Positions 2 through 6,835 of a DNA stretch of 23,205 bases are shown piece by piece. The position numbers were made by a program, and so were the translations under genes. The notes under the pieces were generated by a model, which saw only the letters and a program-made list of their open reading frames with translations, had not been told where the DNA came from and searched no databases. Within the stretch, counting starts at the first letter, position 1. The number at the start of each line of letters is the position of its first letter. The stretch is from a virus: positions 1 through 23,205 of IMG/VR virus record IMGVR_UViG_3300020468_000732. One strand, written 5' to 3'.

Positions 2-1765
2 AAAGCAACGTCCAATATATGCACTGCTCAAGCACTCCTCGCAAATATGGCAGGTTTTTACGCTGCTTACCACGGTTCGGAAGGTCTGAAAAGAATAGCA
101 ACCAGAGTATTAAAATATAGGCAATCGCTATTAACAGCATTGAAATGGATTGGAATAGAGGTTGATGAGTCTGAAGGATTTGATACTGTTAGATTTAAAA
201 GTTTCCTTGCTTTAGAAGGATTCAATGTTAGATACGAAGACGGTTGGACATTGATAACCTTAGATGAGTGTACCACAGAAGATGAATTAAAGCAACTTAT
301 TTGGTCTCAACAAGATATGGTTAATAGGTTTGATACTATTGAACATGTCCTAGATTCAGTAGGGGATTATAAATGGTTTTCTATTCCAGAAAGAAAAAAA
401 CCTTGGTTGACTCAAGAAGTATTTAATAAGTATCGTAGTGAGACTGATATGATGAGATACATTTATGAGTTATCATCTAAAGATTTTTCATTAGTAAATG
501 GTATGATGCCACTCGGTAGTTGTACTATGAAACTAAATGCAGCAGCAGAACTAATGCCTGTATCATGGGAAGGTATTAATAACATACATCCATTCGCACC
601 ACCATCTCAAACTCTGGGATATCAAAAAATTATGGATGATTTAAAAGAATGGTTATGTAATATTACAGGGTTTGATTCTATATCATTACAACCTAACGCA
701 GGGTCACAGGGTGAGTATGCAGGATTGTTAGCAATCAAAGAATACCATATGAGTATAGGTGAGAACAAAAGAAAGGTATGTCTCATACCAGAGTCAGCAC
801 ATGGAACTAATGGTGCATCAGCAGTGATGGCAGGTATGAATGTAGTTACTATTAAATGTGATGATAATGGCAACATTGATATGGCAGACCTAGAGGTAAA
901 GGCAACCATGAATATATTTGAGTTGTCATGTTGTATGGTTACATACCCATCTACTCATGGTGTATTTGAATCTACCATAAAAGATATCTGTAGGATAGTT
1001 CATGAGTGTGGTGGTCAGGTATATCTAGATGGTGCAAATATGAATGCACAGGTAGGACTAGCAAAACCAGGTGAGTTTGGTGCTGATGTAATGCATCTAA
1101 ATTTACATAAGACATTCTGTATTCCTCATGGAGGTGGTGGTCCTGGTGTAGGTCCTATAGGTGTAGCAAAACATCTGACTCCTTACGTAGAACAAAAAGT
1201 ATCAGCAGCACCTCAAGGTAGTGCATCTATCTTACCTATTAGTTGGATGTATATAAGGATGATGGGTGGAGATGGTTTAAGACATGCCACAGAGGTAGCA
1301 TTATTAAATGCAAACTGGTTAGCACATAAGATTGATAGTTCATTTAAAGTACTATACAAAGGAAATAATAATAGGGTAGCACATGAGTGTATCTTTGACT
1401 GTCGTAACTTACCAGTAACAGCAGAGGATATTGCTAAGAGACTTATGGATTATGGTTTCCATGCACCTACACTATCATGGCCAGTTCTAGGAACTATGAT
1501 GGTAGAACCTACAGAGTCGGAGTCACTCGATGAGTTACAAAGATTTGTATATGCTATGGACAAAATTAAAGAAGAGATCTATACTGTTCCTGATATAGTA
1601 AAGAATGCTCCACATACAGAATCAGAAGTCTGTGGTCAATGGACACACGCATACACAAGAGAAGAAGCATGTTTCCCTAATAAACCAAAGAAGAAATTCT
1701 GGGCAGCAGTAAGCCGTATTGATAACGTGTACGGTGATCGTAATCTGGTTTGTGCATGCTCGTAG
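2..1765 (+). CDS. gcvP: Glycine dehydrogenase (decarboxylating), P-protein, 3' part
   Basis: P-protein of the glycine cleavage system: with PLP it decarboxylates glycine and passes the aminomethyl group to lipoyl-H-protein, feeding C1 units to folate. The frame is open from base 2, and the residues before the first ATG (47) still match the family (ATSNICTAQALLANMAGFY), so the gene starts upstream and Met47 is internal. About 587 residues are visible; whole P-proteins are about 950. The PLP-lysine signature LHKTFCIPHGGGGPG is intact, with the lysine codon at 1109-1111, and the C-terminal domain runs to a normal stop, so the visible part looks functional. H-, T- and L-proteins are not in the window and would come from the host or from elsewhere in the phage. 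Family assignment is very secure; that it acts as an auxiliary metabolic gene is inference. Confidence 0.95.
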   Translation, partial: KATSNICTAQALLANMAGFYAAYHGSEGLKRIATRVLKYRQSLLTALKWIGIEVDESEGFDTVRFKSFLALEGFNVRYEDGWTLITLDECTTEDELKQLIWSQQDMVNRFDTIEHVLDSVGDYKWFSIPERKKPWLTQEVFNKYRSETDMMRYIYELSSKDFSLVNGMMPLGSCTMKLNAAAELMPVSWEGINNIHPFAPPSQTLGYQKIMDDLKEWLCNITGFDSISLQPNAGSQGEYAGLLAIKEYHMSIGENKRKVCLIPESAHGTNGASAVMAGMNVVTIKCDDNGNIDMADLEVKATMNIFELSCCMVTYPSTHGVFESTIKDICRIVHECGGQVYLDGANMNAQVGLAKPGEFGADVMHLNLHKTFCIPHGGGGPGVGPIGVAKHLTPYVEQKVSAAPQGSASILPISWMYIRMMGGDGLRHATEVALLNANWLAHKIDSSFKVLYKGNNNRVAHECIFDCRNLPVTAEDIAKRLMDYGFHAPTLSWPVLGTMMVEPTESESLDELQRFVYAMDKIKEEIYTVPDIVKNAPHTESEVCGQWTHAYTREEACFPNKPKKKFWAAVSRIDNVYGDRNLVCACS

Positions 1766-1842: not shown

Positions 1843-4008
1843 ATGACAGACATCAATCAAGAAGTTAAAGGAACACTCGCTAGATTACTAGCAACAGAGA
1901 ATCTAACAGTTGAGCATCGCAAAGTGTCTACAGCATTCTTTGATGTTGAGAAAAGACTTCTTTGCTTACCTATCTGGAAGACTGCTTCTAACACAGTGTA
2001 TGACCTTCTAGTAGGTCACGAAGTAGGTCATGCTCTATACACACCAAACGCTAGACCTGAAGGTGTTAACAAGTCTTTCCTTAATGTTTTAGAAGATGTA
2101 AGAATAGAGAAGTTAATGAGACAAACATATCCAGGTCTTAAGAAAACTTTCTTTGCAGGTTATGCTGAGTTATGGAGAGATGATTTCTTTGGTGTTGCAA
2201 ACGATGATGTAAACGAGATTGCTTTTATTGATCGTATCAACCTATTCTACAAAGGATGTTATGACATGGAGTTCACTGCAGAAGAGCAAGTATATGTAGA
2301 TCGTGCAGGTGCAACAAAAACTTTTGAAGAAGTTATTGAGTTAGCAAAAGAATTATATGATCTAATGGAAGAGAAGGAGCAAGAGAAACTAGAACAGTTA
2401 GGACAACAGCAAAGTCTAGATTTAGATTTAGATATGTTTGATGATGAGAGAGAGTTAACTCCAACTAATGAAGAGACTAATAATGAGTCAGAAAATGCTA
2501 AATCTAATGCTCCAAAGACTGCTCAAGAACTTAGTGATGAGATTGATGAGAAACTAGAACAACTAATAAATGGACAACATGGTTCGGAGACTGGTGATGT
2601 TAATGAGACAGAATCAATTACAGACAAAGCATTCCAAGAAGCATGTGAGCAACTAATTGATGAAGATGCTAAAGAGTGGGTTTACCTTGACTTACCTAAA
2701 ATAAACCTAGACAAGTACATCAAACCTGCTAAGGAAATCAAAGAACAACTATACTGGTGGTTCAACGGTAAAGCACATTCATCTGAAGAAGCACAAGACT
2801 GGCACAATGATCAACTTGATATTTCTTTCCGTAAGTATTTCACATTCAAAAAGTCTGCAAACAAGACTGTTAACTATCTTGTAAAACAGTTTGAAATGAA
2901 GAAGTCTGCAGAGAATTACAAGAGAGCAGCAACTGCAAAGACAGGTGTTATCGATACAAACTCTCTTCACAAATACAAGTTGACTGAAGATATCTTCAAG
3001 AAAATTACTGTTGTTCCAGATGGTAAGAATCATGGTCTTGTAATGTATCTTGACTGGTCTGGTTCTATGTCTTGGACTATCCTTGATACACTTAAGCAAG
3101 TTTACAATCTAGTTTGGTTCTGTAAGAAAGTAAACATACCATTCAGAGTTTACGGATTTGCAAGTGGTCACTATGGTAGATATGGTTATGGTCAGCACAT
3201 GCTTAATGACTGTATGGTTAATCCAAAAAGTAATACATTAGCAATCGGTGAAGACATTCAATTACTAGAGTTCTTATCTTCAAAACAAAGAACTAAAGAA
3301 CTAGAAGAGTCAATGAAGTACCTATTCCTTCAAGCAAATTCTTTCCACTGCAGTCAGTTACAGTATTTCCAACCTCTTGGATTAGGTGGAACTCCATTAG
3401 CAGAAGCGGTATATGCTGCACGTCAACTTGTTGATGATATGAAGAGAACAGAGAAAGTATCTAAAGTTAATGTTATATGCTTAACTGATGGTGAATCTCA
3501 ACCAATGAGTTATGTTTCAAAATCAGAGTATGAGCACAATTATGGTGAACTAACTCTTAAGTGTTTAGCATCTCAGTATGGTAAAGTGTTCTTCTTACGT
3601 GACAGAGAGACTGGACATACAAAGAAAATCTCTAACACTTCATACAATACTACTGCTCAGATAGTAGGATTCCTTAGAGAGATTACAGATTACAACTGGG
3701 TAGGTATTCGTCTATGCAGTAAAGGTGATGCAAATCGTATGTTCAGAGAGTATGCTCTTGACAACTATGATAAACTAGATAAGCAATGGAGAAAAGAGCG
3801 TTTCGCATCTATCAAAAATAACTGTGGATTTACTGAAGCATTCTTTATGCCAGATAGAGGTAACGGTGAAGATGCCCAAGAGATAGAAGTAAAACAAAAG
3901 GGCGAAGTTGCTACTAGAGGTGAACTACAACGTGCATTCAAAAAGCACATGGGTTCTAAGATGGCAAACAAAACTGTTCTAAACAGATTCATAGATCAAA
4001 TAGCATGA
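1843..4008 (+). CDS. cobT: CobT-like VWA-domain protein with HExxH motif
   Basis: 721-residue protein with a C-terminal von Willebrand A domain. The MIDAS metal site is visible as DWSGSMS (D404, S406, S408), with T517 in GGTPLAEAV and D549 in CLTDGES. The N-terminus has HEVGH (residues 59-63) followed by NVLEDVRIE with E84, an arrangement like the zinc ligands of gluzincin metallopeptidases. A highly acidic, low-complexity linker spans about 175-260. In bacteria CobT pairs with CobS (AAA+) and CobN for cobalt insertion into the corrin ring, but no CobN is here. A MoxR/VWA-type chaperone or protease pair with the phage CobS at 5765 is at least as likely. It has its own promoter and overlaps pebS by ATGA, so the two are probably translationally coupled. 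Family is secure; function is open. Confidence 0.85.
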   Translation: MTDINQEVKGTLARLLATENLTVEHRKVSTAFFDVEKRLLCLPIWKTASNTVYDLLVGHEVGHALYTPNARPEGVNKSFLNVLEDVRIEKLMRQTYPGLKKTFFAGYAELWRDDFFGVANDDVNEIAFIDRINLFYKGCYDMEFTAEEQVYVDRAGATKTFEEVIELAKELYDLMEEKEQEKLEQLGQQQSLDLDLDMFDDERELTPTNEETNNESENAKSNAPKTAQELSDEIDEKLEQLINGQHGSETGDVNETESITDKAFQEACEQLIDEDAKEWVYLDLPKINLDKYIKPAKEIKEQLYWWFNGKAHSSEEAQDWHNDQLDISFRKYFTFKKSANKTVNYLVKQFEMKKSAENYKRAATAKTGVIDTNSLHKYKLTEDIFKKITVVPDGKNHGLVMYLDWSGSMSWTILDTLKQVYNLVWFCKKVNIPFRVYGFASGHYGRYGYGQHMLNDCMVNPKSNTLAIGEDIQLLEFLSSKQRTKELEESMKYLFLQANSFHCSQLQYFQPLGLGGTPLAEAVYAARQLVDDMKRTEKVSKVNVICLTDGESQPMSYVSKSEYEHNYGELTLKCLASQYGKVFFLRDRETGHTKKISNTSYNTTAQIVGFLREITDYNWVGIRLCSKGDANRMFREYALDNYDKLDKQWRKERFASIKNNCGFTEAFFMPDRGNGEDAQEIEVKQKGEVATRGELQRAFKKHMGSKMANKTVLNRFIDQIA

Positions 4009-4628
4009 ACCTTTGGAAAAATTATCAGGAAGCAGTCTTCGAGACGTTTCCTGATTTAACATTTGAAAAACAACATGTCCACTGGATTAATAAACGAGGG
4101 GTAAACCTTACTGCTGATATGTACAGTGGAAAACATTTTATTAAATCTAGACACGTTGATATATGGGATGAGAAAATAAACATCCATAACAATGTGATCT
4201 ATCCTAAGACTGGACATAACCTACCATGTTTCGGTATGGACTTGATGGGATTCTTTGAGAAGAAAGTTATAATAGTATTTGACTTCCAACATCCTGTAGA
4301 AAAATTCCTGTTTTCACATCCTGATTTACCTAAAGCAGAAGGAACTTATAGATTTTTTGAACCAGGTAATCATTTTTCTGAAAACATTTATGTAAAGTAT
4401 TGCACTATGAGTGAGGTGGATGATCATCTACCTATGTTTAAAAAATATCTATCTGTATATAAAGATATGTTAGATGAAGCACAACCTACTGGGGAAGATA
4501 CTAGTTTGTATAATGACTTTGATAAGTATATGATTAAACTAGATCCTATCTCAGGTTATCTATCTAACAGTTTTGGTAAAGAAGAATCAGAGAAATTAAT
4601 TAAGGAGTTCTTTTTTAGTTATGCATAA
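4005..4628 (+). CDS. pebS: Ferredoxin-dependent bilin reductase, PebS type
   Basis: 207-residue HY2-family bilin reductase, very like the phage phycoerythrobilin synthase PebS. PebS reduces biliverdin IXa by four electrons, through 15,16-dihydrobiliverdin, to phycoerythrobilin, using reduced ferredoxin. Both catalytic aspartates of the PebS/PebB group appear to be present: D79 in CFGMDLM and D180 in KLDPISGY. Other family stretches are VIIVFDFQHP (88-97) and the tail EFFFSYA. It starts at an ATGA overlap with cobT and overlaps pcyA by 8 bases, so the three genes form one translationally linked unit. The N-terminus is shorter than my recollection of PebS from phage P-SSM2 but the core is complete. 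A PebA- or PebB-like two-electron activity cannot be excluded by sequence alone. No heme oxygenase gene is visible nearby. Confidence 0.88.
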   Translation: MNLWKNYQEAVFETFPDLTFEKQHVHWINKRGVNLTADMYSGKHFIKSRHVDIWDEKINIHNNVIYPKTGHNLPCFGMDLMGFFEKKVIIVFDFQHPVEKFLFSHPDLPKAEGTYRFFEPGNHFSENIYVKYCTMSEVDDHLPMFKKYLSVYKDMLDEAQPTGEDTSLYNDFDKYMIKLDPISGYLSNSFGKEESEKLIKEFFFSYA

Positions 4629-5331
4629 TTTAAACCAAGACGTAGCAGTATTATTAGCATATTGTATGCAGGACTTTGAGGGTGTTAAACCATTAGAGTG
4701 TCCTATGCCCGAAGTAAAAAAGGATGATCTTAAGATTAGGAATACAATGTATAGTACTCCTAAACTTAGAAAGATACATTTAGAATTAGCAGAATTAAAA
4801 GCATTAAAAATATTGCATTGTGTATTCTTTCCTGACCCTCATTATAATTTACCTATCTTTGGATGTGATATTGTTGCTACAGATAAAACAGTTACTGCTG
4901 CCATAGTTGATGTGTCACCTGTAAAAGGATTTGATGACTGGGAAAAGATTAGAGAGATTAGTAATGCTTTTGAGTTTAGTGAAACTAGACATATACCTGC
5001 ATGGGGTGATGATGTATTTTCTCCTTATGCTAAGTTTATGCGTTTAAGTAAAGAGAAAGACATATCAAACTTCTATGTTCTTTTAATAAACTATCTAAAA
5101 GTATATTGTGATATGGTAGATAAAGTTGAAAAGGATGACAACTGGATCATGACTATGCTAAGATATGATGACCAGATAAATTATTGCAAGCAACAAAAAA
5201 AGAATGACAAAACACGTGGCATTCTTGAAAATTTATTTGATAAGGACTGGGCAACTAATTACATAGATAATGTATTATTTGACCTTCCTAGGATTAGTGA
5301 TGTTCCATTCCCCAAAAGGGAAGATGTTTAG
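4621..5331 (+). CDS. pcyA: Phycocyanobilin:ferredoxin oxidoreductase (PcyA type)
   Basis: 236-residue bilin reductase of the PcyA branch, which reduces biliverdin IXa to phycocyanobilin by four electrons. The residues known as catalytic in Synechocystis PcyA are all matched: H53 and E55 in IHLELA (H74/E76), H66 in ILHCVFFPDP (H88) and D83 in IFGCDIV (D105). The C-terminal family stretch NDKTRGILENLF and VLFDLP are also clear. Length is close to the cyanobacterial enzyme. It follows pebS with an 8-base overlap. Its 3' end is overlapped by a small reverse-strand gene. Phage PcyA proteins are known; whether this one makes phycocyanobilin or stops at an intermediate needs an assay. Confidence 0.92.
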   Translation: MHNLNQDVAVLLAYCMQDFEGVKPLECPMPEVKKDDLKIRNTMYSTPKLRKIHLELAELKALKILHCVFFPDPHYNLPIFGCDIVATDKTVTAAIVDVSPVKGFDDWEKIREISNAFEFSETRHIPAWGDDVFSPYAKFMRLSKEKDISNFYVLLINYLKVYCDMVDKVEKDDNWIMTMLRYDDQINYCKQQKKNDKTRGILENLFDKDWATNYIDNVLFDLPRISDVPFPKREDV

Positions 5332-5457
5332 GTTGACCCACTTTGCATAATGTATGCCTCGATAACACAGGAGGGCAAAGACCCTATCTGGATTATGAAT
5401 TTCTGAATCGTACTCTGGAACTTCTGGTCGTTCCCAATTGATGTTAATGTGTAACAT
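5275..5457 (-). CDS. Small reverse-strand protein, unknown
   Basis: 60-residue protein with no recognised domain, reading MLHININWERPEVPEYDSEI at its start and ending in a basic NPRKVK. The case for a real gene is the start region: on the reverse strand a full AGGAGGT lies 8 bases before the ATG, one of the best ribosome sites in the window. An AATAAATA box, close to the T4-type late promoter, lies upstream (5480-5487). It faces pcyA and overlaps its last 57 bases. It therefore probably belongs to a different expression class from the early genes around it. No signal peptide or membrane segment is visible. Confidence 0.6.
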   Translation of the reverse strand: MLHININWERPEVPEYDSEIHNPDRVFALLCYRGIHYAKWVNLNIFPFGEWNITNPRKVK

Positions 5458-5764: not shown

Positions 5765-6835
5765 ATGACTTTCAAAGCAATTTTCACAACAGACGATCTT
5801 CTATCATTTTTCGAGACAGGAGATATTGATACTAACCAAGTAAAATCATTTGCTGATAAGCACGGTGTTCAAATACAAAGTGTTACTAAGAGAATGAATA
5901 AGTTACCACAGTTCCAAAAACTTGGTCGTGGTCGTTGGAATCTTACAGCACAAGAGATTCATAAAGCATATGAAGCACCTTCTGCTCAACCTGCTGTAGA
6001 GGTATCATATGTTCCTGATAAAGATTCTTCTTTCGTTCAGTTCGGTAACTTCAATAGTCTCAAAAAGATTATATCATCTAGACTATTCTATCCTGCATTC
6101 ATTACAGGTCTATCAGGTAATGGTAAAACATTATCAGTAGAGCAAGCATGTGCTTCTCTAAATAGAGAACTCATCAGAGTAAACATCACCATCGAAACAG
6201 ATGAAGATGATCTTATCGGTGGATTCCGTTTGAATGATGGATCTACTGTATGGCACAACGGTCCTGTCATAGAAGCACTTGAGAGAGGTGCAGTACTTTT
6301 ACTAGACGAGATTGATCTAGCATCTAACAAGATCTTATGTTTACAATCTATCCTTGAAGGTAAGGGAGTATTCCTTAAGAAAATTGGAAGATTTGTAAAA
6401 CCTGCTGAAGGTTTCACAATTATAGCCACCGCTAATACAAAAGGTAAAGGTTCAGAGGATGGTAGATTCATCGGAACTAATGTTCTTAACGAAGCATTCC
6501 TTGAAAGATTCCCAATTACTTTCGAGCAAGACTATCCTGCTCAAGCAACTGAGACTAAGATACTTCTTAACCAAGGATGTCAAAAAGAATTTGCAGAGAA
6601 TCTTGTTAGATGGGCAAGTGTTATCCGTAAGACATTCTTTGACGGTGGAGTAGATGAAGTTATTACAACTCGTAGACTTGTCCACATTGTTCAAGCATTC
6701 AATATCTTCAATGATAAAATGACTGCTATCACTCACTGTGTTAATCGTTTCGATGACGATACTAAGCAATCTTTCTTAGACTTATACACTAAGGTTGACG
6801 CAGGAGAAGATACAGAGTATAATGAAGGGGAATAA
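5765..6835 (+). CDS. cobS: CobS-like MoxR-family AAA+ ATPase
   Basis: 356-residue AAA+ ATPase. Walker A is GLSGNGKT (115-122), Walker B is AVLLLDEIDLA with D181/E182, followed by a sensor stretch IIATANTKGKGS and an arginine-finger region FLERFPITF. The first 70 residues hold a small helix-turn-helix-like domain of unknown role. The protein is widespread in T4-like cyanophages and named after cobaltochelatase subunit CobS, but it is equally a MoxR-type remodelling ATPase. The partner is probably the VWA protein at 1843, since such ATPases act with VWA proteins and the two genes share promoter and leader. It has its own promoter, and the stop codon lies in a predicted hairpin. Confidence 0.9.
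   Translation: MTFKAIFTTDDLLSFFETGDIDTNQVKSFADKHGVQIQSVTKRMNKLPQFQKLGRGRWNLTAQEIHKAYEAPSAQPAVEVSYVPDKDSSFVQFGNFNSLKKIISSRLFYPAFITGLSGNGKTLSVEQACASLNRELIRVNITIETDEDDLIGGFRLNDGSTVWHNGPVIEALERGAVLLLDEIDLASNKILCLQSILEGKGVFLKKIGRFVKPAEGFTIIATANTKGKGSEDGRFIGTNVLNEAFLERFPITFEQDYPAQATETKILLNQGCQKEFAENLVRWASVIRKTFFDGGVDEVITTRRLVHIVQAFNIFNDKMTAITHCVNRFDDDTKQSFLDLYTKVDAGEDTEYNEGE

Follow-up and report, generated by a model that had tools for sequence, protein, structure and literature searches.

The window, by which we mean the whole stretch of 23,205 nucleotides that was analysed, is a fragment of the genome of an ocean virus, a T4-like cyanophage, with 36.9% G+C, and its replication region resembles that of P-SSM3 and P-SSM4. 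Two separate open reading frames on the plus strand make up its bilin gene pair: pebS (4005–4628), encoding a phycoerythrobilin synthase of 207 aa, and pcyA (4621–5331), encoding a phycocyanobilin:ferredoxin oxidoreductase of 236 aa. They share the 8 nucleotides ATGCATAA at 4621–4628 of the plus strand, which contain the pcyA start and the pebS stop. The pebS start in turn shares 4 nt (ATGA) with the stop of the upstream gene for a peptidase/VWA-like protein (1843–4008, plus strand; phrog_459, 950 bits against PHROGs), which is the left border of the insertion site. The right border is a gene for a cobS-like AAA ATPase (5765–6835, plus strand; phrog_249). A convergent gene of 60 aa on the minus strand (5275–5457) shares 57 nt with the 3' end of pcyA and carries AGGAGG upstream of its ATG. 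By tblastn it is kept beside pairs at the peptidase/cobS site, homologues are found elsewhere in many cyanophages, and it is possibly a local regulator. At 47–1765 (plus strand) the window also encodes 572 aa of a GcvP-like glycine dehydrogenase, for which the best phage matches, at 76% identity, are P-HM1, P-HM2 and MED4-213. These are phages of Prochlorococcus MED4, which may give a hint of the host.

The first protein of the pair is a PebS. It matches Pfam PF05996 over the cut-off with 57.9 bits and the PebS of phage P-SSM2 (PDB 2vck) with E 5e-73; its AlphaFold model (pLDDT 88.8) superposes on 2vck with a TM score of 0.97. In the tree it falls into the PebS clade with support of 100/100, apart from PebA and PebB. 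The two aspartates that the earlier note had named as catalytic, D79 and D180, align with D105 and D206 of P-SSM2 PebS, exactly the positions changed in the mutant structures 2x9i (D105N) and 2x9j (D206N). Across all loci with both genes, 110 distinct PebS sequences show no variation at the equivalents of N88, D105 and D206. A misannotated PebA is ruled out by the presence of both aspartates and by the grouping with PebS. The predicted product is thus phycoerythrobilin, formed from biliverdin IXa by four-electron reduction.

The second protein is a PcyA. PF05996 is matched over the cut-off with 178.7 bits, the NCBIfam PcyA equivalog PRK02816 with 228.7 bits against a cut-off of 206, and Synechocystis PcyA (PDB 2d1e) with E 3e-42. 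The AlphaFold model has a pLDDT of 90.7 and TM scores of 0.87–0.88 to PcyA. In the tree the protein lies within a cyanophage PcyA clade (100/99), inside the PcyA tree together with cyanobacterial PcyA. The residues H53, E55, H66 and D83, also singled out beforehand, align with H74, E76, H88 and D105 of the Synechocystis enzyme. Equivalents of these four and of N219 and Y238 are invariant in 114 distinct PcyA sequences from all loci with both genes. Glu76 is specific to PcyA and missing from PcyX (PMC10151467); at its site the PcyX-like protein of the pelagiphage Mosig has Asp, where the window protein has Glu55. Retention of this glutamate rules out that the second protein is a PcyX.

The same answer comes from family models, trees, matches to solved structures, AlphaFold models and catalytic residues, and the assignment of the two enzymes is strong. 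The proposal of an overlapping pair of four-electron reductases of PebS and PcyA type is borne out by these data, including the phylogeny that had been suggested as a check. Since the active-site residues are invariant, the pink phycoerythrobilin (PEB) and the blue phycocyanobilin (PCB), light-harvesting pigments from the one precursor biliverdin IXa, are supported as the predicted products of PebS and PcyA respectively. Both proteins are ferredoxin-dependent bilin reductases (FDBRs), a family in which phylogeny is an unreliable predictor of product specificity (PMC13193486).

The pair is not a peculiarity of this genome. At a threshold of E 1e-5, 50,697 phage records contain a pebS match in 31 records (~21 distinct phages) and a pcyA match in 26 (~15 phages); among the isolates with either gene, a single one, Cyanophage P-RSM6, has both. 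Adjacent pairs amount to 139 distinct DNA sequences, a tally that takes in P-RSM6 and the window, and nearly all of the others come from uncultured marine viral contigs. Conservation in so many distinct sequences argues that the pair is not due to chance. The junction pattern was matched by at least 119 stretches. Among the best 80 PebS relatives in IMG/VR, 55 are paired, 19 are single and 6 lie at contig edges; the best 75 newly fetched PcyA relatives divide into 73 paired and 2 at contig edges. Culture collections therefore underrepresent the pair, as only P-RSM6 has both genes among the isolates with either. The search of other phages that the earlier note had called for thus yielded a single isolate, and the numbers in the databases weaken the novelty that it had expected. 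In the open-access literature that we searched, we found no paper that treats the pebS–pcyA pair. It appears to be frequent yet undiscussed, and GenBank already annotates the P-RSM6 example.

In P-RSM6 (HQ634193, CPXG_00107/00106) the genes stand in the same order as in the window, with an 8-nt overlap, and the proteins are 68% (PebS) and 56% (PcyA) identical to those of the window. However, its pair is located between petE and terminase instead of between the peptidase gene and cobS, and its PcyA belongs to another cyanophage PcyA lineage. The Prochlorococcus phage P-SSM4 has a pcyA at the same peptidase/cobS site, likewise sharing 4 nt with the peptidase gene, but without pebS, and its PcyA is 47.5% identical to that of the window. 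P-SSM2, the source of the characterised PebS, and S-SSM7 share the PebS fold and residues, but have no adjacent pcyA. The hemO-pcyX and alaS-hemO-pcyA/X cassettes of pelagiphage type (PMC11480375; Mosig) are likewise phage cassettes of bilin genes. They differ in having one FDBR with an adjacent heme oxygenase, and their PcyX lacks the PcyA glutamate and makes PEB. From the host pebA-pebB operon together with pcyA the same end products are expected as from the window pair, but there PEB is made by two enzymes and pcyA lies elsewhere.

Several sequences at the margins of the survey are recorded here. Synechococcus phage S-T4 retains at 3983–4183, at the cobS/GC152 site, only a C-terminal remnant of pebS (~60 aa) that is annotated as hypothetical. 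Synechococcus phages Sf-CH3 and Sf-FP1, from marine sponge cortex, encode a very divergent PcyA (37% identity) on a long branch, with an uncertain product. One genome assigned to the cyanobacterial phylum (L194; G092:C109) encodes an FDBR that branches off close to the base of the PebA/PebB/PebS group and whose branch is very long. An apparent pebS in a cyanobacterial genome (L121) was dismissed, its contig being among those shown as phage DNA in PMC13198022.

Pairs are found at four or more genome positions: besides the peptidase/VWA–cobS site of the window, they adjoin petE and terminase (P-RSM6 type), neighbour gp46 or lie elsewhere. Single pebS genes lie mostly between cobS and GC152, and single pcyA genes adjoin terminase in P-RSM1 and MbCM1. 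In some phages one or two genes intervene between pebS and pcyA. At four loci (L203, L215, L252 and L281) a gene of 131–132 aa of no known function lies between pebS and a pcyA of ACG-2014j type, and L281 has a further gene of 185 aa in the same interval. At one locus (L384) pcyA comes first and pebS follows ~1.2 kb later.

The paired PebS proteins form a single clade (99/95), in which the lone "unpaired" member stems from a contig cut just past the pcyA start. On the PcyA side, 21 paired proteins form a clade (100/99), and those of P-RSM6 type and that of L038 lie outside, among single PcyAs. Monophyly of paired PcyA is only marginally rejected (AU test, p 0.044). At 57 representative loci with both genes, the PebS and PcyA distance matrices are correlated (Mantel r = 0.69, with 0 of 2000 permutations as high), and the two trees have 132 conflicting well-supported split pairs against 3 shared splits. 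The Mantel correlation shows partial co-inheritance only, and the tree conflict rules out a strictly co-inherited unit. The cassette thus travels together in part, and partner exchange is frequent. With trees in such strong conflict and partners swapped, an obligate complex of the two enzymes is unlikely. Both genes are under purifying selection, with dN/dS mostly 0.08–0.19 for PebS and 0.09–0.38 for PcyA; paired PcyA evolves faster than PebS.

Among the first 72 pair loci examined, pebS and pcyA overlap at all, by 8 nt at 67 and by 11 nt at 5. Unpaired pebS has an identical 8-nt overlap with the unrelated next gene GC152, so that the overlap is a property of the pebS 3' end. In some pair loci an AAGGAG-like stretch lies ~13 nt 5' of the pcyA start, which is beyond the usual spacing, and it is not conserved. 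Translation of pcyA may therefore depend on ribosomes that complete pebS.

Regarding the substrate, P-RSM6 and three long pair-bearing contigs carry heme oxygenase genes, and a fourth contig gave a partial match. No heme oxygenase was detected in one pair contig of 163 kb, nor within the 23-kb window, itself a genome fragment. CpeT-like genes are present in several pair records. The long pair-bearing records contain no credible phycobiliprotein gene; matches of this kind fall inside giant open frames of >8500 aa and were discounted as spurious. Three FDBRs are usual in genomes of the Prochlorococcus/Synechococcus family, and in the one that we inspected in detail pebA and pebB are adjacent and pcyA is separate. 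According to Dammeyer (2008), as cited in PMC3037559, PebS, PcyA and HO of other cyanophages are functional in vitro. What phage bilin genes do in Prochlorococcus has been called a mystery (PMC3037559; PMC4928673).

The reading that we consider probable is that the two genes form a mobile cassette for two bilins in a T4-like cyanophage. The data show the identity of the enzymes, their active sites, the conservation of the genes, purifying selection on them, the mobility of the cassette and the exchange of partners; the products, their use and their benefit are inferred. Further support comes from the 73 paired genes among the 75 best environmental PcyA relatives, from the heme oxygenases of several pair phages, from the other layouts in which pebS and pcyA have also come to co-occur, and from the in vitro function of PebS, PcyA and HO of other cyanophages. 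PebS and PcyA would draw on shared biliverdin IXa, supplied by the host or by a phage heme oxygenase encoded elsewhere in the genome, with reduced ferredoxin as electron source for both. PebS would yield PEB and PcyA would yield PCB, each acting independently of the other. During infection the bilins could serve host acceptors, PEB going to phycoerythrin and PCB to allophycocyanin/phycocyanin or GUN4. The cassette has moved among genome sites, and its PcyA partner has been replaced. Counting against this reading are the poor predictability of FDBR products from phylogeny (PMC13193486), the lack of a heme oxygenase in the window and in the 163-kb pair contig, and the absence of phycobilisomes in Prochlorococcus, which makes the use of the pigments uncertain (PMC4928673). 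That PEB synthesis goes along with PCB synthesis in many uncultured marine cyanophages, so that host targets receive both bilins simultaneously from the paired enzymes, or that the paired PcyA makes a product unforeseen from its active site, we regard as a tentative possibility.

Hitch-hiking of pebS and pcyA that merely meet at shared hypervariable sites, where pairing adds no function beyond that of each gene, would account for the single pcyA at the peptidase/cobS site of P-SSM4 and those next to terminase in P-RSM1 and MbCM1, for the single pebS between cobS and GC152, and for the identical overlap of unpaired pebS and the conflicting gene trees. Nevertheless it is unlikely: the 139 distinct adjacent pairs occupy several unrelated sites, the paired PebS proteins form one clade and the pair stays intact while the sites change, which together suggest selection for keeping both genes. 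The linkage might instead set a PEB:PCB ratio, as the earlier note had proposed from the overlap, or channel intermediates, with the overlap coupling translation and fixing the enzyme proportion in a complex. This we consider improbable. The constancy of the stop/start overlap and the AAGGAG-like motifs of some loci make re-initiation after pebS plausible, but unpaired pebS overlaps its unrelated neighbour equally, partners have been exchanged and the genes are separated by others in some phages. The overlap is thus ruled out as proof of ratio control, and the data do not support a novel linkage that sets a ratio.

An altered paired PcyA, which makes PEB as PcyX does or acts on the product of PebS in a sequential or redundant pathway, has a precedent in PcyX itself, which is related to PcyA but makes PEB (PMC11480375). 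In its favour, too, predictions of FDBR specificity are difficult (PMC13193486), the faster evolution of paired PcyA fits such a change and the gene order resembles the pebA-pebB operon. Against this stand the Glu76 equivalent, missing from PcyX, replaced by Asp in the Mosig protein and invariant here, the equally invariant H88, D105 and Y238 equivalents in the 114 PcyAs, and the position of the window protein within the cyanophage/cyanobacterial PcyA clade. The new product that had been envisaged is therefore not suggested by the active site, and we rate an altered PcyA as very unlikely. For the new receptor envisaged along with it, the data speak neither in favour nor against, the long pair-bearing records having no credible phycobiliprotein gene. 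Finally, the pair could act mainly as a sink for biliverdin, iron release or electrons in infection, with the pigments as by-products. Iron supply has been discussed as a role of phage cassettes with heme oxygenase and an FDBR (PMC11480375), and several pair phages possess a heme oxygenase; yet a sink would not require two different product specificities or active sites that are both strictly conserved, and of all the alternatives this is the one to which we give least credence.

From isolates one would gather that a cyanophage carries either pebS or pcyA, whereas the close environmental relatives of both genes are nearly all paired. Culture collections thus misrepresent the gene set, and the question moves from why a phage needs one bilin to why it needs both. 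The interest of the pair lies in its frequency in uncultured phages, set against a single occurrence in isolates, and in a purpose that is testable; the cassette can be expressed and assayed directly. If a dual supply of bilins or an unforeseen PcyA product proved true, it would help to explain why phages of the phycobilisome-poor Prochlorococcus carry bilin genes.
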